Shown piece by piece: positions 5,316-19,581 of a stretch of 20,684 nucleotides of DNA; position 1 is the first letter of the stretch; every line of letters starts with the position of its first letter. The notes below the pieces were generated by a model. The model did not search any database. It had not been told where the DNA came from and was given only the letters and a program-made list of their open reading frames with translations. The translations under genes were made by a program, and so were the position numbers. The stretch spans positions 1 through 20,684 of IMG/VR virus record IMGVR_UViG_3300048589_000332. One strand, given 5' to 3'. The stretch is from a virus.

Positions 5316-5503
5316 CGTTCCACATCGTGCGGATATGTACCCCACATATAACGTGTCTGTCCAGTCAGGAAGCGGTTAAGACTATCCATCTTAACTGGTG
5401 GAGTATATTCTTTCAAGTCATCGTCTGTGATGAAAACATACTCGTGGTCACTTCCTGGCTCTTTTCGTCTTGTGATTGGGTAAACATCTTCTACTTTAAT
5501 CAT
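5285..5503 (-). CDS. Hypothetical small protein
   Basis: This 72-residue protein starts at ATG 5503 (MIKVEDVYPITRRK...), overlapping the stop of the polynucleotide kinase gene in a TAATG arrangement, with AGAGGGAA upstream inside that gene. It begins with a beta-strand-like segment and has an aromatic-rich second half (YMWGTYPHDVERWLNN). No motif is recognised. It lies within the RNA-repair part of the operon, but a role there is only a positional guess. Confidence 0.7.
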   Translation of the reverse strand: MIKVEDVYPITRRKEPGSDHEYVFITDDDLKEYTPPVKMDSLNRFLTGQTRYMWGTYPHDVERWLNNKPNLG

Positions 5504-6399
5504 TAAAAGTTTCCCTCTGCTACCTGGAAGCATTTAAGCCCAAGTTTACGCCACATATCAACTACTTGGTTTCGGTCATCCATAACGAACTTCACGTTAA
5601 ACCTTGCTTCTACATGTGCACGATACAACTCTTCTTTGATTATTGAATCTTTACGGGTGTCACCTTCAGCTCGAGTGTATAACTCATCGTAAGGGATTCC
5701 GTTAGCTTCTAACCATTCTTCTGTTACTTTTCGGTCTTTACCATCTCTACCAGTAAGAACAATAACCTTATAGCCGTGTTCGTACATCATAGCAGTGACT
5801 ACGCTAACAGCATCATCAACTTCATCATTCATGGCTCGGCTTGCGTCATAAGGACTGCGACCATCTGCGATGTGTGCTAGAGTACCATCAACATCAACTA
5901 TAATACACTCTTCTTTACTATCGTCATATGCCACTGGTGTTACTGGTGGGTCAATGTACTTGTTGTACATCTGATATATGACTTTCTCTGGTACTGGATT
6001 CTCACGTAATGCGTTACGCTTGATACACTCTTTAACTGGTGTGTCAAAGAACTTCTCTTCGTAATCTGCCATAAACTCACCTGCGATGCTCTTGAACTGG
6101 TCAGCATGTTTAGGGTCTAAGTTAGTGTCATCCACTACTACATTTTGTTCGTTTACTAGAGCACGGATGATAATTTCATCACGTAACTGAAGAACAAACG
6201 CTTCATTTGGTCTACTGAACTTGCTATTGTGTAGCATAGCCCGTAGGTCATCTTTGTTCACACGAACCCACCCTTTAGCGACTAGCTCCCGAGCATAGGT
6301 AGTTTTACCTGATGCTGGAAGCCCTTTCAATGCTAAAAGTTTAGGATTGGCTTGTGCAACTTGTCGTTCAACCTTTGGCGGTTGTGTTGCTGTCTCCAT
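5503..6399 (-). CDS. pseT: T4-type polynucleotide kinase / 3'-phosphatase
   Basis: Bifunctional RNA end-healing enzyme: it phosphorylates 5'-OH ends and removes 2',3'-cyclic or 3'-phosphates so that a ligase can seal the break. The N-terminal kinase domain has a P-loop GLPASGKTT (26-34), a DD-L-R segment after it and VVVDDTNLDP (87-96), which matches the T4 Pnkp DTN motif. The C-terminal HAD phosphatase domain has VDVDGTLAH (Asp169, Asp171), the LTGRDG motif and a late FVMDDR motif. Length (298 residues) is like T4 Pnkp. ATG 6399 is preferred over the adjacent TTG, with AAAAGGAG upstream. It belongs with the RNA ligase (7322-8245) and nucleotidyltransferase (8242-8973). Confidence 0.94.
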   Translation of the reverse strand: METATQPPKVERQVAQANPKLLALKGLPASGKTTYARELVAKGWVRVNKDDLRAMLHNSKFSRPNEAFVLQLRDEIIIRALVNEQNVVVDDTNLDPKHADQFKSIAGEFMADYEEKFFDTPVKECIKRNALRENPVPEKVIYQMYNKYIDPPVTPVAYDDSKEECIIVDVDGTLAHIADGRSPYDASRAMNDEVDDAVSVVTAMMYEHGYKVIVLTGRDGKDRKVTEEWLEANGIPYDELYTRAEGDTRKDSIIKEELYRAHVEARFNVKFVMDDRNQVVDMWRKLGLKCFQVAEGNF

Positions 6400-6535
6400 C
6401 AAGACTCCTTTTCAACTCTTCGAGTTTCTTCTTATTCTCCCCAGTATTGAACGGATAGTGAAACCATCCAGCTCCCTTAGATGCAATACTGTAAATCACC
6501 CCAGGAATTGGAAACTTCTTATCTTTACGCTGCAT
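6368..6535 (-). CDS. Hypothetical small protein
   Basis: A 55-residue protein starting at ATG 6535 with GAAGGAG 6 nt upstream. That ribosome binding site contains AAGGAGTTA, a perfect 9-base complement to the exposed segment of the plus-strand RNA at 16741-16749. The first half (KKFPIPGVIYSIASKGAGWFHYPF) looks like a compact beta fold; the second half is a charged helix. It overlaps the start of the polynucleotide kinase gene by 32 bases, suggesting coupled translation. No family is recognised. Confidence 0.7.
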   Translation of the reverse strand: MQRKDKKFPIPGVIYSIASKGAGWFHYPFNTGENKKKLEELKRSLDGDSNTTAKG

Positions 6536-7009: not shown

Positions 7010-7338
7010 ACATACCTCGGGTGAGCTTTGAACCATGCGTTGCTTGCTAGGTCTAATACGATTCTAACATCAACTTCATCTTCAAACTCTTTTACTCGTA
7101 CACTAAATCGACCACTACCAACTTCTGAATCACGGAACTGTTCCTGTGACTGGTAGAAGTACTCAAGTGCACTTTCTGTAAGTCGGGTAATAGTGTCAAC
7201 CAGCTCACTGTGAGAAGGCGGTACATTACTGTCTCCGTAAGTCCAACCGTATAGGTTAAACAGCGGTGCTGCAGCTTGTGCAGCTTCGTGAATCTTGTCG
7301 TGTAGCAATTCTACTGTGATTCTACTTATCGTGTTCAT
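7006..7338 (-). CDS. Hypothetical protein
   Basis: A 110-residue acidic soluble protein: an N-terminal helical part (ELLHDKIHEAAQAAAPLFNLYGWTYGDSNVPPSHSELVDTITRLTESAL) and a C-terminal strand-rich part (SGRFSVRVKEFEDEVDVRIVLDL). It overlaps the RNA ligase end by 17 bases and the following gene by 4. Position inside the RNA-repair region is the only functional hint. No motif is recognised. Confidence 0.7.
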   Translation of the reverse strand: MNTISRITVELLHDKIHEAAQAAAPLFNLYGWTYGDSNVPPSHSELVDTITRLTESALEYFYQSQEQFRDSEVGSGRFSVRVKEFEDEVDVRIVLDLASNAWFKAHPRYV

Positions 7339-8245
7339 TTATTTCCCCTTTAACTAACTCTTCTTTATACCATTGTGCGAGACCGAATACTGAGTACTTG
7401 AGAATGTCTTCCTTATAGATATTCCATAGAACATCTTTGATATTCTCTTTTTCTTCAGCTTCAATGTCAACTCTGGTTTCTTTAATTAACGCTCCGATGT
7501 CTTTAGGAGTACCAGTCAACTCACCATTTTCTCGCAAGTGCTGTACTGCCTTATTCCATCGTGCAACCGTTCGGTAGTTCTCTTTCAGAACTTCAAACTT
7601 GCCCTTACCCGTATTGAGTTTAGACCAGTCTTTCTGGTGTACTTCTTTGAACTCTTCAGTGACGTACTTACCAGACATTACACTGAGAGGAATCTGTCCA
7701 AGGAACATCCAATCCTTGTACGCCTTGACCACGACCCCCTCAACAGACTGTCCACCAAGATAGCTGGGTGTGTCCTTAACCATTTCGAGGACATTAACTG
7801 CGGAAGTTTCTCCTCTAAACAAGAGGGGCACAGCGTCAACCTCAAATAGTTCTGCATATTCACGTATTGTGTCGTAATTATGGTACACTCTCGGCTCAAC
7901 CTCGTACACAGCGAACAATGCGATGTGATTCCGTGGGATTCTATCGTAGGCGAGTGTAGAGTGCCTTGGTGCACATAGTGTTTCCCCGTAGAAGAAAAAT
8001 CCATTTGGTATCCTATCTGCTATACTATTTACATACAAAACTGCAGGTAAAAATAGCTTATCGGCATTATCTGCTTCTATTTCACGCCCCTTTGAGCGTA
8101 TGATAAGTTCACCCTCTGGTGTCTTACCAAAACCGAATTGACTGCCGTCTATCTTTTCAGTTATTTCTACTTCTGTCTCAAACAAATCCAATATTTGTTT
8201 GTCCCCTATGTGTAGAATCTTCGGGAATGCTGATGTCTTACTCAC
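7322..8245 (-). CDS. RNA ligase, Rnl2-like
   Basis: ATP-dependent ligase that seals 3'-OH/5'-phosphate RNA ends through a lysyl-adenylate. The nucleotidyltransferase motifs are in order: motif I EKIDGSQ with Lys31 as the AMP acceptor, motif III FFYGETL (about 84-90), motif IV VEGVVVKAY (about 172-180) and a motif V-like segment near SGKYV (about 195). The helical C-terminal region (about 225-307) is extra. The start is GTG 8245, overlapping the nucleotidyltransferase stop (GTGA), with GAGGAGTTA upstream; eight of those bases match the anti-Shine-Dalgarno segment of the plus-strand RNA. With the Pnkp homologue (5503-6399) it would rejoin cleaved RNAs such as tRNAs. Confidence 0.92.
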   Translation of the reverse strand: MSKTSAFPKILHIGDKQILDLFETEVEITEKIDGSQFGFGKTPEGELIIRSKGREIEADNADKLFLPAVLYVNSIADRIPNGFFFYGETLCAPRHSTLAYDRIPRNHIALFAVYEVEPRVYHNYDTIREYAELFEVDAVPLLFRGETSAVNVLEMVKDTPSYLGGQSVEGVVVKAYKDWMFLGQIPLSVMSGKYVTEEFKEVHQKDWSKLNTGKGKFEVLKENYRTVARWNKAVQHLRENGELTGTPKDIGALIKETRVDIEAEEKENIKDVLWNIYKEDILKYSVFGLAQWYKEELVKGEINEHDK

Positions 8246-11720: not shown

Positions 11721-11859
11721 TGGCGGATAGGGATGGAATCGAACCATCGCTTGCAAAGATGATAAATCTCTGACCCTAGTAGACCCTGCACATATCAAGT
11801 GGCAAAATCGTTCAGGCAACCAGGCTAATGCCCGTGCTCTACCTCTGAGCTACCTACCC
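11721..11859 (-). tRNA. Oversized tRNA-like gene (139 nt) with insertion before the anticodon arm
   Basis: The acceptor stem pairs over seven positions (GGGTAGG with CCTATCC, one G-U), followed by G and an encoded CCA. The T-arm is perfect (GATGG, loop TTCGATT, CCATC) and the D-arm is normal (GCTC, AGAGGTA, GAGC). The rest is about 63 nt too long. The best anticodon arm is AGAGA-TTTATCA-TCTTT, giving UAU (Ile) but with C at position 37. About 63 nt starting with a CGGGC-ATTA-GCCTG hairpin separate it from the D-arm. It may be an interrupted, decayed or non-translational tRNA. Confidence 0.55.
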
Positions 11860-12444: not shown

Positions 12445-12789
12445 CTAATACCAGTTATTGGCGTAATGAAACGCAAGAGCCTGTGAGAAACCGCCATAGC
12501 GTCTCTCTACATAAGACTTCATCCATTTAACTTGGCAAGCACCGTCACCCAAACTACAACCAGACTTACCACAAGGAAGTTCTTGGGCTACGCCACAAGC
12601 TCCTGATGATGGGTTGACTGCATTTGGGTTACATCCAGACTCTTTACCAATTAAGGTCATAGCTGCCTGAATGTCTGATACACCAGCCTGAGCAAGCCAA
12701 TCCGAACAGTTACCACTGACTGCAACCACGCTAATATTTGCGTTCCTGGTCTGCTGTCGTGCTGCTTCTAGTTTAGCTTGCTTTATCCT
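12445..12789 (-). CDS. Lysozyme/transglycosylase-like domain, C-terminal half of a frameshifted gene
   Basis: The -1 frame encodes a basic linker (RIKQAKLEAARQQT) and then a small peptidoglycan-hydrolase-like domain: CSDWLAQAGVSDIQAAMTLIGKESGCNPNAVNPSSGACGVAQ...GDGACQVKWMKSYVERRYGGFSQALAFHYANNWY. The ESG segment contains the likely catalytic Glu; several cysteines suggest disulfides and an exported protein. A GTG at 12729 is the only conventional start in this frame and would cut off the linker, with no good ribosome binding site. The frame joins the upstream coiled-coil gene exactly where expected, so this is read as its continuation after a -1 shift. It could be a second lysin or a wall-remodelling enzyme. 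Confidence 0.75.
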   Translation of the reverse strand, partial: RIKQAKLEAARQQTRNANISVVAVSGNCSDWLAQAGVSDIQAAMTLIGKESGCNPNAVNPSSGACGVAQELPCGKSGCSLGDGACQVKWMKSYVERRYGGFSQALAFHYANNWY

Positions 12790-12800
12790 TTTAACTCGGA
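12783..12800 (-). other. Probable -1 frameshift junction (TTA AAA GGA TAA)
   Basis: The zero frame reads GAG TTA AAA GGA TAA and stops. Shifting back one base at the A-run gives AAA AGG ATA AAG, which enters the lysozyme frame without loss of residues. The lysine tRNA can re-pair on AAA in the -1 frame, and the stop codon lies one codon later. Programmed slippage, a real mutation and an assembly error are all possible. Confidence 0.5.
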
Positions 12801-13052
12801 GTTTTCCTTCTCGAGCTGTTGTATCTTCTCATCTTTTTGTTCGAGGGCTTTATCAGCCTTCTGTTTTTCCGTCAAAACGGTTTCAAGATTCGATTTAATT
12901 TTACTAGTCTCTTGCTGTGATTGACTAAGTGATTGATTCACTTGGTCAAGTGATTGAGCATGAACTCTTTGCACGAACACATAAGCAACTAGAAGGACTG
13001 TAACAACTGCTAGGATAGCTGCTGTCTTAGACCATTTTACGATTGCACGAAT
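12783..13052 (-). CDS. Membrane signal-anchor plus coiled coil, N-terminal half of the lysozyme-like protein
   Basis: Read from ATT 13050-13052, the product begins with a basic segment (IRAIVKWSK), a hydrophobic helix (TAAILAVVTVLLVAYVFV) and QRVHAQ, a good signal peptide or anchor with a possible cleavage site. A coiled coil of about 60 residues follows and stops at 12783. AAAGGA lies 5 nt before the ATT, whereas the first conventional start (GTG 12980) falls after the membrane helix and has no good ribosome binding site. ATT is therefore preferred, giving 89 residues, or 202 when joined to the downstream frame. ATT starts are rare and usually weak. Confidence 0.62.
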   Translation of the reverse strand: MRAIVKWSKTAAILAVVTVLLVAYVFVQRVHAQSLDQVNQSLSQSQQETSKIKSNLETVLTEKQKADKALEQKDEKIQQLEKENSELKG

Positions 13053-13151: not shown

Positions 13152-13213
13152 ATATGGTATTATATCAAACTTGACTCAAAAAGTCAATAGTTTTTTACGA
13201 AAATCTGTTGTAG
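13152..13213 (-). promoter_or_regulatory. Promoter P1 (sigma70 type) for the lysozyme-tRNA-RNA repair unit
   Basis: On the minus strand: -35 TTGACT (13182-13187), 17-nt spacer, -10 TATAAT (13159-13164). The spacer ends AAGTTTGA, as in P2 and P3. TTGACT and AGTCAA form an inverted repeat inside the promoter (5-nt gap), a possible operator. CTACAACA lies 18 nt upstream of the -35 (13206-13213). Transcription should start near 13152, leaving a leader of about 100 nt before the ATT start. Confidence 0.9.
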
Positions 13214-13304
13214 TTTATACAATTCGTGGCTGCTGCATCCGTAAAGGAAGCCATTTAACTAAATTACTGGGTCTTACTCCATGTTTCAGGATTGCCCTGC
13301 ACCA

Positions 13305-14083: not shown

Positions 14084-14501
14084 CTTTACGTGCACCCTGC
14101 AAATCAATTACCCTGGACTTGATAGCATCTATCAGGTCGTGTGTATCAGCTGTGATTGACTTGAGTTTCTCGTAAAGTACTTTAGCTTCAGTATATTCAT
14201 TCTGTGCTTGTATGAACTGCTCATCAGTGTACTTAGCGTCACCTGCTGTTGTAGCATTATGTTCTGCTTTGGCTCGAAGGAATGCTTCTCCCTTAGCCTT
14301 CTGCATAAGGGTTTCCTTCTCCATAGCATCTCTATGTGCTGAAACCTTGACCTCTAACAGGGATGCTTTCATAGCACTGAGTTTTACCCCGATGTATGAA
14401 AGAACATCACCTGTTAAACTTTTCAGGAACGCTTCGTCAGACAACTGATAGTTAATCTTCATTATCTTACCGATTATCTCGGCTGTCTGCTCTGGGTTCA
14501 T
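14067..14501 (-). CDS. Helical protein of unknown function
   Basis: A 144-residue almost entirely helical protein with long Ala/Glu/Lys stretches (AMKASLLEVKVSAHRDAMEKETLMQKAKGEAFLRAKAEHN; EYTEAKVLYEKLKSITADTHDLIDAIKSRVIDL), likely a helical bundle or antiparallel coiled coil. It follows the SSB-like gene after one base. Its place between SSB-like and RusA suggests a replication or recombination accessory factor, but no motif confirms this. Confidence 0.7.
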   Translation of the reverse strand: MNPEQTAEIIGKIMKINYQLSDEAFLKSLTGDVLSYIGVKLSAMKASLLEVKVSAHRDAMEKETLMQKAKGEAFLRAKAEHNATTAGDAKYTDEQFIQAQNEYTEAKVLYEKLKSITADTHDLIDAIKSRVIDLQGARKDERLS

Positions 14502-14952: not shown

Positions 14953-15242
14953 TTCTTTACCGCTTTCTTCTTAGTTGTCTTCTTCTTTAGGTTATCATAC
15001 TTACGTTCTAATGCGTAGTAATTGTCTCGTATGCTTTGTTCTCTACGTGACTCACTCTGGGCGAGATTCTCTGCCCTCTCAGCACGAATTAGTGCTTCTT
15101 CTAGTTCTTTCTTTAGAACTCTATTCTCTTCCTCAAGATGTTGACTCCTACCAACATTGTATGCCAGTAGGGTCAATCGCTCATCTTTAGGGTGCATTCG
15201 TTCTTGGTCTGGATGACCACTGACTGCGTAAGAATCGTACAT
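14949..15242 (-). CDS. Coiled-coil protein with lysine-rich tail
   Basis: A 97-residue protein: a short N-terminal region (MYDSYAVSGHPDQERMHPKDERLTLLAYNVGRS), a coiled coil of about 55 residues (EEENRVLKKELEEALIRAERAENLAQ...) and a tail of mixed Lys/Thr (KKKTTKKKAVKK). The tail is likely to bind nucleic acid. It overlaps the stop of the HIRAN-nuclease gene and the start of the SSB-like gene, so the three are co-translated. Confidence 0.7.
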   Translation of the reverse strand: MYDSYAVSGHPDQERMHPKDERLTLLAYNVGRSQHLEEENRVLKKELEEALIRAERAENLAQSESRREQSIRDNYYALERKYDNLKKKTTKKKAVKK

Positions 15243-16480
15243 TATTCTACCCCTAATATTACTTGACTTATATCAATCACATCGTGACTGAACTCTTCCC
15301 AAGGATTTTCACCTGAGACTAATTTCTCACCATTCATCCAGTAAACATCTAATCCTTCGACAGTCCAACCTGCTCGGTTAAGAATGAATGCGTAGAACGA
15401 AAGCTGTAACCAGTGGTAATCTAACAATTCGTTACCCATAGCTTCTTTGAATGGGCTTGTTGACAACTGATATTTCTTCTCGTGTACGTCTGCATCTGTC
15501 TTGAAGTCCTGGATGCGGATGATTCGTTTCTTGAGGTCAATCACTTTGATACGGTCAATAGAACCACAAAGTTTGAACTCTCTATCCCATACAAACTCTT
15601 CACTGAAGCGGATGTAGTCACCACCGAACAACTCATGGAATGATTCAACAATCTTCTTGAGTACTGGGTTACGACTGAGTGCCTTGTTAGCACCAATCTC
15701 TGGTGGTTTGGTCTTAAACTCTTTGACTGACTTTGTTCTGTCACCTAGCTCATAGTTTCTATCGTAGTTCTCCATCGCATAGTGGATAGAGTTGCCAAAG
15801 TTGGTTGATGCAAGACTGTTAACGTCCCACATTTCACTAATTTGCTTAATCTCAGCATCTGTGAGACTGTGCTTCTTCTGGATAGCTTCGAGGATACTCT
15901 TCGAGTCAAACTCTTGGTAGAACTGTTCTGGGAACTTGCTACCGCTTAGGAATCCTTCTAGCCGTTTGTGACCATTTACTTCTTGAACTTCGATGTTCTT
16001 ACCCAGTAATACACTGTTGTAAGTTGCAGGTTCGACAGTCTTCTTGCCACTAGCGTCAACTACCTGAGTCAGGTAAGCTAGAACCTGTTGCATCTGTTCT
16101 TTAGTAGGTTTAACTGCTTTCTTCACTTCTTCTTTCACTGGTGCTGTCTTTGCTGCAGGTGCTTCTTTGTACTGCAACTCAATGTTTACTCCGAAACTCT
16201 TGCCATCGCCACCTGTGATGGTTGACAATACAATCTCTACTGGAATGTTTGCGTCCATTGATTTAGCAATTTCAAGATTCTTGTCTTTTGCTATGTAGCC
16301 AATAGGCAACCATTCTTCACCCTTGAGAACATCGACTGCTACTGCATTCTTGTCATACTCGTTGTCGGCTTCTCGCCTTACACGCAACTGTTCTTTACCA
16401 GTAAGTGTAGAGATGACTGCTTGTCTGCCTTCAAATGTAACCCCAACTAGCTTACTATTGTATTTGAATAGCTTGCTCAT
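15242..16480 (-). CDS. HIRAN domain fused to PD-(D/E)XK nuclease (RecB/Cas4-like)
   Basis: A 412-residue fusion. Residues 10-105 form a HIRAN domain (LVGVTFEGRQAVIS...READNEYDKNAVAVDV...LPIGYIAKD), a module that binds free 3' DNA ends and stalled forks. After an Ala/Lys/Pro linker (105-125), residues 220-412 carry a RecB-type nuclease: GNSIH (Gly229-His233), EE near 294-295, GSIDRI (Asp309), IQDFKT (Asp325, Lys327) and QLSFYAF (Gln359). It probably processes DNA ends for recombination or replication restart. Start ATG 16480 has AAGGAGTTA upstream, another perfect target of the nearby plus-strand RNA, and overlaps the micropeptide stop. Confidence 0.88.
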   Translation of the reverse strand: MSKLFKYNSKLVGVTFEGRQAVISTLTGKEQLRVRREADNEYDKNAVAVDVLKGEEWLPIGYIAKDKNLEIAKSMDANIPVEIVLSTITGGDGKSFGVNIELQYKEAPAAKTAPVKEEVKKAVKPTKEQMQQVLAYLTQVVDASGKKTVEPATYNSVLLGKNIEVQEVNGHKRLEGFLSGSKFPEQFYQEFDSKSILEAIQKKHSLTDAEIKQISEMWDVNSLASTNFGNSIHYAMENYDRNYELGDRTKSVKEFKTKPPEIGANKALSRNPVLKKIVESFHELFGGDYIRFSEEFVWDREFKLCGSIDRIKVIDLKKRIIRIQDFKTDADVHEKKYQLSTSPFKEAMGNELLDYHWLQLSFYAFILNRAGWTVEGLDVYWMNGEKLVSGENPWEEFSHDVIDISQVILGVE

Positions 16481-16560
16481 TTATCTAACTCCTTCTGGAA
16501 CTTGCGTGATACTAGCAGAACTAGCACTAAAGCCCCTAAAACTGTTAATGTTAATATCAT
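16477..16560 (-). CDS. 27-residue single-span membrane micropeptide
   Basis: MILTLTVLGALVLVLLVSRKFQKELDK: one hydrophobic helix with a basic/polar tail. The ATG at 16560 lies 17 nt after the predicted transcription start of P2 and has GAAAGGA 5 nt upstream. The stop overlaps the HIRAN-nuclease ATG (ATGA), whose ribosome binding site lies within its last codons. Being the first gene of a strongly promoted unit makes translation likely. It may act on the membrane or mainly tune translation of the nuclease. Confidence 0.68.
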   Translation of the reverse strand: MILTLTVLGALVLVLLVSRKFQKELDK

Positions 16561-16576
16561 TTAATCCTTTCACCAT

Positions 16577-16638
16577 ACTAGGGATTATATCAAACTTTGC
16601 TCAAAAAGTCAACCCTTTTTCGTAAAAATGTGTTGTAG
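16577..16638 (-). promoter_or_regulatory. Promoter P2 (sigma70 type) for the nuclease-recombination unit
   Basis: On the minus strand: -35 TTGACT (16607-16612), 17-nt spacer ending AAGTTTGA, -10 TATAAT (16584-16589), then CCCTA as in P3. CTACAACA (16631-16638) lies exactly 18 nt upstream of the -35, as in P1. Transcription starts near 16577, giving a leader of only about 17 nt. Confidence 0.92.
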
Positions 16639-16674
16639 TTTTTACATTTCTATGTCACTACCCCTATAAACCTC

Positions 16675-16703
16675 TTGACATTTGAAAGGAGTTATGGTAT
16701 AAT
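16675..16703 (+). promoter_or_regulatory. Plus-strand promoter of the small RNA
   Basis: Consensus-quality sigma70 promoter reading against the surrounding genes: TTGACA (16675-16680), 17-nt spacer, TATAAT (16698-16703). The start is expected at 16708-16710. It is divergent from P2, whose -35 lies 63 bases away. The spacer contains GAAAGGAGTTA (16684-16694), an exact inverted copy of the RNA's own TAACTCCTTTC. Confidence 0.9.
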
Positions 16704-16708
16704 ACCCA

Positions 16709-16790
16709 GTGTAGAGATTTCTTTGTCGTTACTCTACGCTTAACTCCTTTCTTTGAACCCAGGACTCCCCTATGCCTGGGTTCTTTTTTT
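16709..16790 (+). ncRNA. Short RNA with exposed anti-Shine-Dalgarno segment
   Basis: A promoter and an intrinsic terminator frame a transcript of about 82 nt with no open reading frame. The 5' part folds into a 9-bp stem (AGTGTAGAG, 16708-16716, with CTCTACGCT, 16732-16740; one T-G) and a 15-nt loop. An unpaired stretch TAACTCCTTTC (16741-16751) follows, then the terminator hairpin. The unpaired stretch is the complement of GAAAGGAGTTA. AAGGAGTTA is the ribosome binding site of three genes in this window (starts 4822, 6535, 16480), with 8-base matches at the RNA ligase (8245) and a leader frame (19226). A trans-acting translational repressor is the natural reading; function is inference. Confidence 0.75.
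16755..16790 (+). terminator. Rho-independent terminator of the small RNA
   Basis: GAACCCAGG (16755-16763) pairs perfectly with CCTGGGTTC (16775-16783) around an 11-nt loop, followed by seven T (16784-16790). The T-run overlaps the stop codon of the minus-strand gene 16789-16959. On the minus strand no T-run follows, so it works only for the plus strand. Confidence 0.92.
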
Positions 16791-16959: not shown

Positions 16960-17102
16960 TACTTATTTCTCCTTGCCTGTTGTTTAGCCTTACGTGTTCT
17001 CTTATTCTTAGCTCTTCGCTTCTCGGTTCTACGTTTTGCTGCTTCGTCTAGTAACCTCTTTCGTGTTATTAGTTTCTCGATAAGGTTGATATTCTTATTC
17101 AT
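16959..17102 (-). CDS. Small very basic protein
   Basis: A 47-residue frame (MNKNINLIEKLITRKRLLDEAAKRRTEKRRAKNKRTRKAKQQARRNK) starting at ATG 17102, 8 bases inside the helicase end. The second half is an almost continuous Arg/Lys helix, so nucleic-acid binding is likely. It is translated together with the helicase and may assist it; this is inference. Confidence 0.66.
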   Translation of the reverse strand: MNKNINLIEKLITRKRLLDEAAKRRTEKRRAKNKRTRKAKQQARRNK

Positions 17103-18327
17103 TTGCTTTACTCTTCTCCTTAAACTTTGCATCTATAGCTCGTGCTACTGCACTAACCATCAATGCTCGTTGATTTATACCCTTCAAATATAGGGTCTCT
17201 AAACTTCGTACTCGTGAGAGTCCCACGTATCCCATTCCTTCCACAAAAGCCTTTGATAGGTCTAATTCTGCGGTATCGAGGGTCATTCCTTGCGATTTAT
17301 GGACGGTGATAGCATACGCCAACCTTATAGGTATTTGTGTAATCGCTGCAGTAGTCCTATCACCACGCTTGTATTCCCACTCTTGAGGGTATACAGTATA
17401 AGCGTACATATCGCCAAAATCAACAACAGGAAAACCGTCAGTTGAAAAATCAGTAACCACACCAATACTTCCATTAAAATACCTGCCTTCTGGGTCATTC
17501 TTTACTGCCATAACGACAGCCCCTAGTTTAATTTCCAATCTTTCAGGTGCTAAAACATTTTTCTGTAGTATTTGCAAGTCATTCCAAGATTGCCCTCGGC
17601 TTGTTCGCAAATAGTAGTGTGTGTCTCCTGGTATCTGTGCCAGTTTCGCACTGTTGATATTCTCAACATCAATGTTCAGCGTATACAATCTAGTTACATT
17701 ATCGGTTGCCTTATGCCCCATACGACTCTTCAAGAGGTCGATGTGTCGTTGTTTCAACGTACCATCACGCATGGCGTTTAAGATGTCCTCTAATCTCGCA
17801 TCGTCTTGTCGGTGCTGCTCCTCTAGGTAACATACCTTGACATTCATTTGCTTCCAAACTTTACTGAATACTATAAACTTACCAGAACCACCTTGTTTCA
17901 CTGGTGGCAACTGAAAGAAGTCTCCAACTAGGATAACTTGAATCCCCCCAAACGGACTATCATTCTCACGGATAATCCTCATGGCTTCATCAACCATATC
18001 CAAGTTATAATCATGCATCATACTGATTTCATCAATTATCAGAACATCAGTTTTGCGTATGTCTTTCTTCCTAGTTTCACTCATTGTATAGATGTAGTCA
18101 TCGTGCAAGTGGTCATCTAACCCCATGCCAGACCAGCTATGTATAGTTTGTCCACCAATATGTGATGATGCAAGTCCAGTAGTGGCAGTAACAACAACTT
18201 TTTTGTGCTTGCGTTTCGCTTGTTTCACAAACTCGTTGATTGTCCATGTTTTACCACTACCAGCCTGTCCTGTCAATAGTACATTCTCGCCAGATAGCAT
18301 TATTTCTATAGCTCGTGCTTGTATCAT
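17095..18327 (-). CDS. Pif1/RecD-like superfamily 1B DNA helicase
   Basis: A 410-residue ATP-driven 5'-3' DNA helicase. Walker A is GQAGSGKT (20-27), Walker B LIIDEISMM (96-104), motif III GDFFQLPPV, then EEQHRQDD (motif IV region) and the C-terminal VHKSQGMTLD...GYVGLSRVRS (motifs V and VI). This matches Pif1-type helicases used for phage replication or recombination. ATG 18327 is preferred (AGGAG upstream, ATGA overlap with the preceding gene) over the longer frame from 18381, which lacks a ribosome binding site. It shares the P3 unit with several small proteins. Confidence 0.93.
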   Translation of the reverse strand: MIQARAIEIMLSGENVLLTGQAGSGKTWTINEFVKQAKRKHKKVVVTATTGLASSHIGGQTIHSWSGMGLDDHLHDDYIYTMSETRKKDIRKTDVLIIDEISMMHDYNLDMVDEAMRIIRENDSPFGGIQVILVGDFFQLPPVKQGGSGKFIVFSKVWKQMNVKVCYLEEQHRQDDARLEDILNAMRDGTLKQRHIDLLKSRMGHKATDNVTRLYTLNIDVENINSAKLAQIPGDTHYYLRTSRGQSWNDLQILQKNVLAPERLEIKLGAVVMAVKNDPEGRYFNGSIGVVTDFSTDGFPVVDFGDMYAYTVYPQEWEYKRGDRTTAAITQIPIRLAYAITVHKSQGMTLDTAELDLSKAFVEGMGYVGLSRVRSLETLYLKGINQRALMVSAVARAIDAKFKEKSKANE

Positions 18328-18602
18328 AATGCTCCTGCTCTCTTTTTGCGTCTCTTGACTTGCCACCCCTGTTGTAACCATGGTGGTCGTTCTTTAGACT
18401 TAATATCTGGTGCTAGTTTTCTAGCTATCTCTAATGCTGTCGTAGTGTACTGCGGTGTTTCACCTTGTGGCACAACCAACTTGACAACCTTCAATCCTTC
18501 GTGCTCTAGTACTTCGGGTTTATTGACAAGTTGCTCCATGCCTTCAATTTCGCCAGATAAGAGATTCCCCTGCCCTGCTTGAACAGCTTTACGTCTTGCC
18601 AT
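18324..18602 (-). CDS. Hypothetical protein preceding the helicase
   Basis: A 92-residue protein with basic ends (MARRKAVQAGQGN...; WLQQGWQVKRRKKRAGAL) and a central region (EVLEHEGLKVVKLVVPQGETPQYTTTALEIARKLAPDI). GGGGGAA precedes the ATG. Its stop overlaps the helicase ATG (ATGA), so the products are made together, and the basic tail would allow DNA contact. A helicase-loading or partner role is a positional guess. Confidence 0.7.
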   Translation of the reverse strand: MARRKAVQAGQGNLLSGEIEGMEQLVNKPEVLEHEGLKVVKLVVPQGETPQYTTTALEIARKLAPDIKSKERPPWLQQGWQVKRRKKRAGAL

Positions 18603-19010: not shown

Positions 19011-19436
19011 CACTTTCCCCTATATTTTGTTACTTCGGGGGCTTCTTCTTCCCCGATATTACCACGGACGGGCTGTTAGAAGTTAGCCACTAAGGTGTTG
19101 AACATATAAGATACAGTCTTTATCTACCTAACCACCGTTGCACTTCGCCTTTTTATCGGTCTGTAACATTTCTGATTAGTTATTTCACTTCCCTATAGAA
19201 AGTACTGTACTGATTTTGCGTATCACGCTCAACTCCTTACAGAGTATCGGGGACAGGTTGCTCAAGCCCTCAGAACAATCCTGATATTATGATATTACGC
19301 TCGTGTCGATTTTTTACTATCGAGGTGAATCTGAGAACACCTCGCTTATATGTTGTTTGTCAAAATGCAACTTCACCTTATGGGTTACTCACTCGATTAC
19401 ATTCTGTTTGTTGTGTCGTTATGCCGTTATTAGCAT
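19011..19436 (-). promoter_or_regulatory. Long structured untranslated leader downstream of P3
   Basis: About 425 nt lie between the P3 start site and the first clear gene, in a genome where genes otherwise overlap. Two stable stems are visible on the transcript: CGAGGTG/CACCTCG with a 10-nt loop (19321-19344) and TCGGGG/CCCCGA with an A/G-rich loop (19035-19056). Neither is followed by a T-run, so they are not intrinsic terminators. A possible 13-codon leader frame lies at 19185-19226. It does not match a riboswitch class that I recognise. Confidence 0.55.
19185..19226 (-). CDS. Possible 13-residue leader peptide
   Basis: GTG 19226 with AAGGAG at ideal spacing opens a 13-codon frame, MIRKISTVLSIGK, ending at TGA 19185. 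The ribosome binding site AAGGAGTT is also complementary to eight bases of the plus-strand RNA. In such a short frame chance is a real alternative. No run of one amino acid suggests attenuation by a particular tRNA. Confidence 0.3.
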   Translation of the reverse strand: MIRKISTVLSIGK

Positions 19437-19488
19437 GTAGGGATTATATCAAACTTTAACGCAAAAGTCAAGTACTTTATTGTTGTAG
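19436..19488 (-). promoter_or_regulatory. Promoter P3 (sigma70 type) for the leader-helicase unit
   Basis: On the minus strand: -35 TTGACT (19466-19471), 17-nt spacer ending AAGTTTGA, -10 TATAAT (19443-19448), then CCCTA as in P2. CTACAACA (19481-19488) lies 9 nt upstream of the -35, half the distance seen in P1 and P2, and overlaps the last codons of the gene 19477-19581. Start near 19436. Confidence 0.9.
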
Positions 19489-19581
19489 AATATACAATGC
19501 CCTAATTGTTAACCATATCAGCACTAAAACACCAGCAAACAAAATCAAATTATGGGTATTATTTTTTGGGTCTAATGCCAT
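19477..19581 (-). CDS. 34-residue single-span membrane protein
   Basis: MALDPKNNTHNLILFAGVLVLIWLTIRALYILQQ: a polar N-terminus and one strong membrane helix. ATG 19581 has AAGGTG upstream and lies within the end of the preceding gene in another frame; the stop lies within the promoter region P3. The clean helix and the ribosome binding site support it. The function is unknown. Confidence 0.6.
   Translation of the reverse strand: MALDPKNNTHNLILFAGVLVLIWLTIRALYILQQ

Follow-up and report, generated by a model that had tools for sequence, protein, structure and literature searches.

A conserved putative small RNA with an anti-Shine-Dalgarno tail between the helicase and exonuclease genes of uncultured phages

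The window, i.e. the whole stretch of DNA that was analysed, is an entire IMG/VR record of 20,684 bases. Between the genes of a PIF1-like helicase and of a protein combining a HIRAN domain with an exonuclease, it holds a short frame-free transcription unit with its own promoter and intrinsic terminator (Table 1), features of a stand-alone small RNA that are conserved in relatives. A preliminary description of this DNA had reported a consensus promoter, a 9-bp hairpin, an unpaired segment and a terminator, without a reading frame and oriented against all neighbouring genes, and each of these elements was recovered in the same order and place. The promoter, a perfect one of the sigma-70 type, has its -35 hexamer TTGACA at 16675-16680 and, after a 17-bp spacer, its -10 hexamer TATAAT at 16698-16703, preceded by TG; it was the sole 12/12 match on either strand in the 10.7 kb scanned. 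The transcript would start at A16708/G16709 and end in the T run. Its 5' hairpin encloses a 15-nt loop, AUUUCUUUGUCGUUA (16717-16731), and is followed by unpaired TTAACTCCTTTCT, which lies between the hairpin and the terminator as described; the unpaired tail reads TAACTCCTTTC at 16741-16751. The terminator arms (16755-16763 and 16775-16783) are followed by T7. The predicted fold has an energy of -26.9 kcal/mol, compared to -12.5 +/- 2.3 for shuffles. No ORF of at least 40 aa was listed on the plus strand within the RNA, which is intergenic, runs opposite to the helicase, the exonuclease and their operon, and has its terminator end meeting the end of the neighbouring gene (16788/16789).

Table 1. 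Positions of the small RNA, its parts and its neighbours in the window.
Feature	Position	Strand	Basis
PIF1-like helicase	17095-18381	-	Pfam PIF1 9e-37; synteny
Intrinsic terminator, GAACCCAGG-loop-CCTGGGTTC-TTTTTTT	16755-16790	+	sequence and fold
Anti-Shine-Dalgarno tail, UUAACUCCUUUCU	16740-16752	+	unpaired from 16741, in every fold
5' hairpin, 9 bp	16708-16740	+	arms 16708-16716 and 16732-16740
Small RNA, about 80 nt	16708-16788	+	fold z -6.4; CM score
Small-RNA promoter	16675-16703	+	12/12 match; hexamers kept in relatives
Divergent promoter of the exonuclease operon	16584-16612	-	divergent layout shared by relatives
Ribosome binding site of the HIRAN-exonuclease, AAGGAGTTA, best candidate phage target	16486-16494	-	complementarity to the tail; kept in 7 out of 11 lineages as AAGGAGTT(A/G)
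HIRAN domain and exonuclease protein	15242-16480	-	Pfam HIRAN 1.1e-8; PHROG 298 exonuclease 4e-19

The promoters of the small RNA and of the exonuclease operon share one region, with about 62 bp from -35 to -35. A promoter class of the form TTGACTTTT-N-AGTTTGATATAAT, preceded by a palindrome of the type TTGTA-N5-TACAA that is likely a site for a shared regulator, recurs in these phage genomes and is found in the window at 16584-16650, 13159-13225 and 19443-19500. It was also observed that part of the spacer of the small-RNA promoter (GAAAGGAGTTA, 16684-16694) forms an exact 11-bp inverted repeat of the tail; this repeat is kept, or nearly so, in the close relatives of the window and is absent in G009, G011, G013 and G014. 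Elsewhere on the minus strand, a PNKP-type kinase/phosphatase (5503-6402) and an RNA ligase (7322-8245) probably constitute an RNA repair pair, which occurs group-wide.

As consensus scans by themselves did not rise above chance (24 promoter-like sites were observed versus 21 expected, and promoters and terminators together were at about shuffle level), relatives were sought. A PIF1-like helicase search of IMG/VR yielded 13 contigs with 66-99% protein identity, and a pattern scan added one more (L023/G014), giving a total of 14. G010 and G012 were excluded, since these contigs end at or before the helicase-exonuclease junction. The small RNA, complete with promoter and terminator, was found in all 13 junction-spanning contigs (12 relatives and the window), invariably in the same orientation and between the convergent helicase, with zero to two small genes intervening, and the divergent HIRAN-exonuclease. 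These contigs correspond to 11 distinct lineages, as G003, G004 and G005 look like one phage.

The 45-nt core, i.e. hairpin plus tail, is 91-100% identical to that of the window in 12 contigs (the window counted) and 71% identical in the most divergent one, G013. With the very close G001 set aside, identity is 57-74% over 120 bases on the upstream side and 44-68% over 60 bases on the downstream side. Helicase genes share as little as 65% identity in nucleotides, with a near-saturated 46-59% where only third positions of codons for conserved residues are counted, and the HIRAN-exonuclease shares 44-62% identity in the most distant relatives. Each promoter hexamer carries at most one change while the spacer varies freely, and the terminator stems vary in sequence with the pairing kept, e.g. 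GAACCCAGG/CCTGGGTTC, GAACACTTGG/CCAGGTGTTC and GAACCACTGAG/CTCGGTGGTTC. The loop is nearly invariant: its first base is G in distant relatives, and UUC has become UUA/UAU-like in G013 only. A change from U-G to U-A in the 5' stem of L023/L018 keeps the pair; covariation is uninformative for this stem, because it hardly varies. G013 retains the 5' hairpin, has a small extra hairpin inserted after it, and carries an unpaired ACTCCTTCCC (ACTCCTT), with CUCCUU, beyond the insertion. The unpaired segment, whose possible loss from promoter-keeping relatives the preliminary description had considered, is accordingly kept in 12 contigs and displaced, but present, in the 13th.

A CM of the core (R1) scored 74-79 bits in 12 contigs and 34 in G013, with at most 22.6 bits elsewhere in the phage sequences searched; as R1 was built from seven of the scored sequences, their own scores are high by construction. 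The 22.6-bit hit, in G008 at 14099, was rejected as antisense within a coding stretch. Two looser IMG/VR scans for variant RNAs with other stems added only L105 and L106, both within coding regions and likewise discarded. No family in Rfam (release 15), including VrrA (RF01456) and STnc240 (RF02074), scored above its gathering cut-off, the best being 21.3 bits versus 50. An exact-pattern scan of genome contigs for host homologues gave 0 matches, and the distantly related phages MW202692 and MW202697 from Manatee Spring are without the small RNA. Judged by these sequence comparisons, hairpin and tail are under strong purifying selection, and the small RNA gene is almost certainly real, conserved and functional. 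As it is almost unchanged in phages whose synonymous sites are nearly saturated, it offers a clean case in which to ask why a virus needs an RNA.

The host is tentatively placed in the Saccharibacteria. A peptidoglycan-type protein (12445-12729) had only two relatives among genome contigs, namely in a Candidatus Saccharibacteria MAG and in another bacterial MAG. This protein is apparently split on the minus strand (12445-12729 and 12783-12980), possibly by a frame change or as two genes. Within the tentative phylum, the amidase (0 out of 145) and the terminase (1 out of 380, weak) gave no firm support, and R1 reached 23 bits at best in 380 genomes from the phylum to which the Saccharibacteria MAG belongs, a chance-like score compared to 74-79. 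By terminase, the closest named phage is an uncultured podovirus from Manatee Spring (44%), which is without the small RNA.

Over 9 nt, CUCCUUUCU in the tail is identical to the 3' tail of the 16S rRNA (GGATCACCTCCTTTCTAG) of this Saccharibacteria MAG, so the tail should be able to pair with any strong Shine-Dalgarno site, and the conserved UUAA located 5' of CUCCUUUCU would add a preference for AAGGAGTTAA. AAGGAGTTA occurs six times in the window versus 0.35 expected: in the RNA, in its promoter spacer, in three ribosome binding sites (4822, 6535 and 16480) and once inside a coding region (11016). Enrichment of tail matches was assessed in seven phage genomes with CTCCTTTCT fixed and its 5' flank randomised, counting at least 9 contiguous pairs. 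The real flank matched 19 phage ribosome binding sites compared to a mean of 4.9, and 19 was reached by 0.9% of random flanks, or 1.8% when these were T-rich. While the real flank was the best of 64 trinucleotides, TAT came close behind at 18; the enrichment is thus present but modest, at about 1%.

The combination of AGGAG with a following TTA (AGGAGTTA) was found at 17 out of 109 phage sites versus 2 out of 124 interior coding positions. With the window left out, it was found at 14 out of 100 phage sites versus 2 out of 68 in 506 kb of Saccharibacteria-phylum DNA (Fisher p = 0.017), p-values here being optimistic because the phages are related and the sites include orthologues that are not independent. 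AGGAG in general precedes 28% of phage genes versus 12% in the tentative host phylum, i.e. it is about twice as common, so that a tail of this kind would encounter phage mRNAs more frequently; both host-phylum comparisons depend on the tentative host, whereas the existence of the RNA does not. Gene starts were taken from a simple script, not from a trained gene finder. AAGGAG also stands before several genes that had been said to use different ribosome binding sites, e.g. those at 330, 5503, 16789 and 20427, so the tail would pair there too, over at least 6 bases.

Five targets had been named in the preliminary description, and AAGGAGTTA is indeed, as claimed, the ribosome binding site of three of them, i.e. 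the coiled-coil gene (4822), the small gene at 6535 and the exonuclease (16480). The exonuclease holds up best: AAGGAGTT(A/G) precedes it in the window, G001, G002, G003-5, G006, G008 and G011 (7 out of 11 lineages) and is absent in G007, G009, G013 and G014. In the window, G001 and G011, the bases of this site also encode the end (KELDK) of a leader peptide, while in G003-5 and G002 the site is kept with bases that encode no KELDK. In G013, where the tail has changed, the exonuclease site did not follow. The gene at 6535 also stands, with AGGAGTT or better in its five relatives, and the match of the coiled-coil gene is clearly kept only in G001 and G008 among the relatives. The remaining two did not hold: the match before the RNA ligase (8245) is lost in G001, in which the ligase is 99% identical, and the supposed ribosome binding site of a leader frame at 19226 is in fact the 3' arm of a hairpin that is conserved within a structured non-coding leader of about 420 nt.

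When all gene starts of a phage were ranked by the energy of the duplex that they would form with the tail of that phage, the exonuclease came at rank 3-11 where the match is present, usually in the upper quarter of the genes of its genome. It was never clearly first, the rank 1 in G009 resulting from a mis-set start, and it was therefore rejected as the top target by this measure. The genome-wide duplex scan, an interaction prediction proposed in the preliminary description, gave no outstanding orthologous target shared by several phages, and no target with pairing conserved wherever the RNA occurs was found among the 11 lineages.

The leader peptide overlapping the exonuclease start (16480-16560, minus strand) has about 27 codons, is membrane-like and reads MILTLTVLGALVLVLLVSRKFQKELDK in the window; versions of it occur in several relatives. 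The structured leader of about 420 nt, in turn, lies behind promoter P19471 (19436-19010, minus strand) and ends just before the helicase-operon genes. RNAalifold on four phages gave 88 pairs, 18 of which have both sides changed with the pairing kept. Two other, apparently unrelated long non-coding leaders precede the helicase operon in other phages of the group (L032:18855-19240, L034:4530-4850 and L038 ~15000-15390, minus; the G004/G006 and G011/G013 types), and leader types may be exchanged between phages. Neither the P19471 leader nor the alternative ones matched Rfam. Other structured RNAs noticed were an Rfam tRNA match with about 65 extra bases (11724-11859, minus strand), left uncalled by ARAGORN and situated beside a normal tRNA-Asp, a similar long tRNA-like match in L038:5068-5176, and a short tmRNA-like match in L034:14093-14174.

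No conserved partner of the loop was found in the phage genomes. Words complementary to the loop (AACGACAA) are over-represented, but they are scattered, mainly over coding regions, and form no conserved sites. Pairing of loop and tail with the leader behind P19471, which has TAACGACA repeats and, in the window, a 13-bp match AAGGAGTTGAGCG, was considered and rejected, as this leader type is present in only four of the phages compared and its GGAGT is explained by its own hairpin. A nearly invariant loop without a conserved phage partner points to a second contact, perhaps with a protein or a host RNA.

The reading that we tentatively prefer is that of a trans-acting phage sRNA which masks strong Shine-Dalgarno sites of early phage mRNAs, with the exonuclease as the leading candidate. 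The small RNA would be transcribed by the host polymerase, and its tail would pair with phage mRNAs at ribosome binding sites of the AAGGAGTTA type; the likeliest of these belongs to the exonuclease operon, which is made from the adjacent divergent promoter. Such pairing would block 30S binding and thereby cap or time translation, while the loop would serve as a second contact with a protein or an RNA. The retention of the tail even in G013, the enrichment at ribosome binding sites and the exonuclease site in 7 out of 11 lineages favour masking; opposed to it are the missing universal target, the invariant loop that is left over, and the fact that CUCCUU fits any strong Shine-Dalgarno site. 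Of the preliminary description, the first part, a phage small RNA that stands alone and exposes an anti-Shine-Dalgarno segment, is strongly borne out by conservation in 13 contigs, while the joint repression of a subset of genes is weakly supported. Masking makes a direct prediction, i.e. an effect of the tail on the translation of AAGGAGTTA-led messages, that of the adjacent exonuclease first.

That loop and tail are both near-invariant, yet lack a phage target common to every phage, is what would be expected if the partner were a slowly changing host RNA. Host messages, or a small RNA of the host, might then be the main targets of the phage RNA, with loop and tail pairing to one conserved host RNA that would be shut down or freed early in infection, and the near-consensus promoter fits early use by the host polymerase. 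However, the host is only tentative and AGGAG sites are less frequent in the group to which it is assigned, and we consider this explanation rather unlikely. The conserved loop lends itself also to another explanation, in which the hairpin would be a protein-binding module (for a host RNase, RNA chaperone, ribosomal protein or defence protein) and the RNA a decoy whose tail mimics the 16S tail. Its 15 nt are nearly unchanged over the lineages while no complementary site is conserved, CUCCUUUCU equals the 16S 3' tail, and the phage encodes the PNKP-like kinase/phosphatase and RNA ligase, which makes an RNA conflict plausible. As no match to known decoy RNAs was obtained, and the conserved UUAA of the tail is absent from 16S rRNA, a decoy seems unlikely. 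A related proposal, to which we assign a low probability, is that the RNA copies the 16S 3' tail of the ribosome and competes for strong Shine-Dalgarno sites, with the nearly invariant loop docking the RNA to a host factor. If true, a whole class of messages rather than one gene would be throttled by a phage whose host is an uncultured, ultra-small bacterium, tentatively of the Saccharibacteria.

A role in cis appears improbable. The divergent promoter and the terminator could insulate or prime, e.g. as antisense to helicase-exonuclease read-through or as a replication primer, with the RNA as a by-product, and the fixed position, the orientation antisense to the surrounding operon and a terminator that faces the helicase agree with this; a cis role does not, however, need 45 nt of conserved sequence alongside a promoter spacer and a terminator stem that are free to vary. 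A replication origin was considered and rejected, as the extremes of cumulative GC skew in G001, G011 and G013 lie away from the small-RNA site; the end of the G004 contig is close to this site by coincidence. That promoter, hairpin and terminator came together by chance, for which only the shuffle-level consensus scans would speak, is practically refuted by conservation in 13 contigs despite near-saturated synonymous sites.

The RNA belongs to a previously undescribed family of a known kind, in uncultured podovirus-like phages. Nothing relevant emerged from a literature search on small RNAs of Saccharibacteria phages, and small or noncoding RNA goes unmentioned in a paper on CPR phages (PMC10746230). 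Stand-alone phage sRNAs include lambda OOP, which is antisense to cII, as well as PreS, AgvB, which mimics host-sRNA targets, and 24B_1 (PMC12197685). With OOP the present RNA shares being a short phage transcript opposite an adjoining operon, but no Rfam family matches its hairpin or tail, and an OOP-like cis-antisense role was rejected because the RNA is intergenic, without overlap with a coding region. VrrA (RF01456) is built similarly, with a hairpin, an unpaired UUAACUCCU and a terminator, and through UUAACUCCU it gives the best sub-threshold Rfam alignment; at 21 bits versus a gathering cut-off of 50 (E 0.14), this is a similar design and not membership, and the shared UUAACUCCU is a matter of chance or convergence. 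The 16S rRNA 3' tail is identical over the 9 nt of CUCCUUUCU, but has GGAUCAC where the small RNA has its conserved UUAA. Nearest by the mechanism proposed here is the c4 RNA of P1 and P7, which prevents translation by base-pairing in the region of a ribosome binding site and is described as having its complementary sequences in loops and a single target mRNA (ant, antirepressor) in immunity (PMC12197685). Both are phage-encoded RNAs, known or proposed to pair around a ribosome binding site; the small RNA described here differs from c4 in carrying its complementary sequence in an unpaired tail, in having its own promoter and terminator, and in that its candidate targets are plural.
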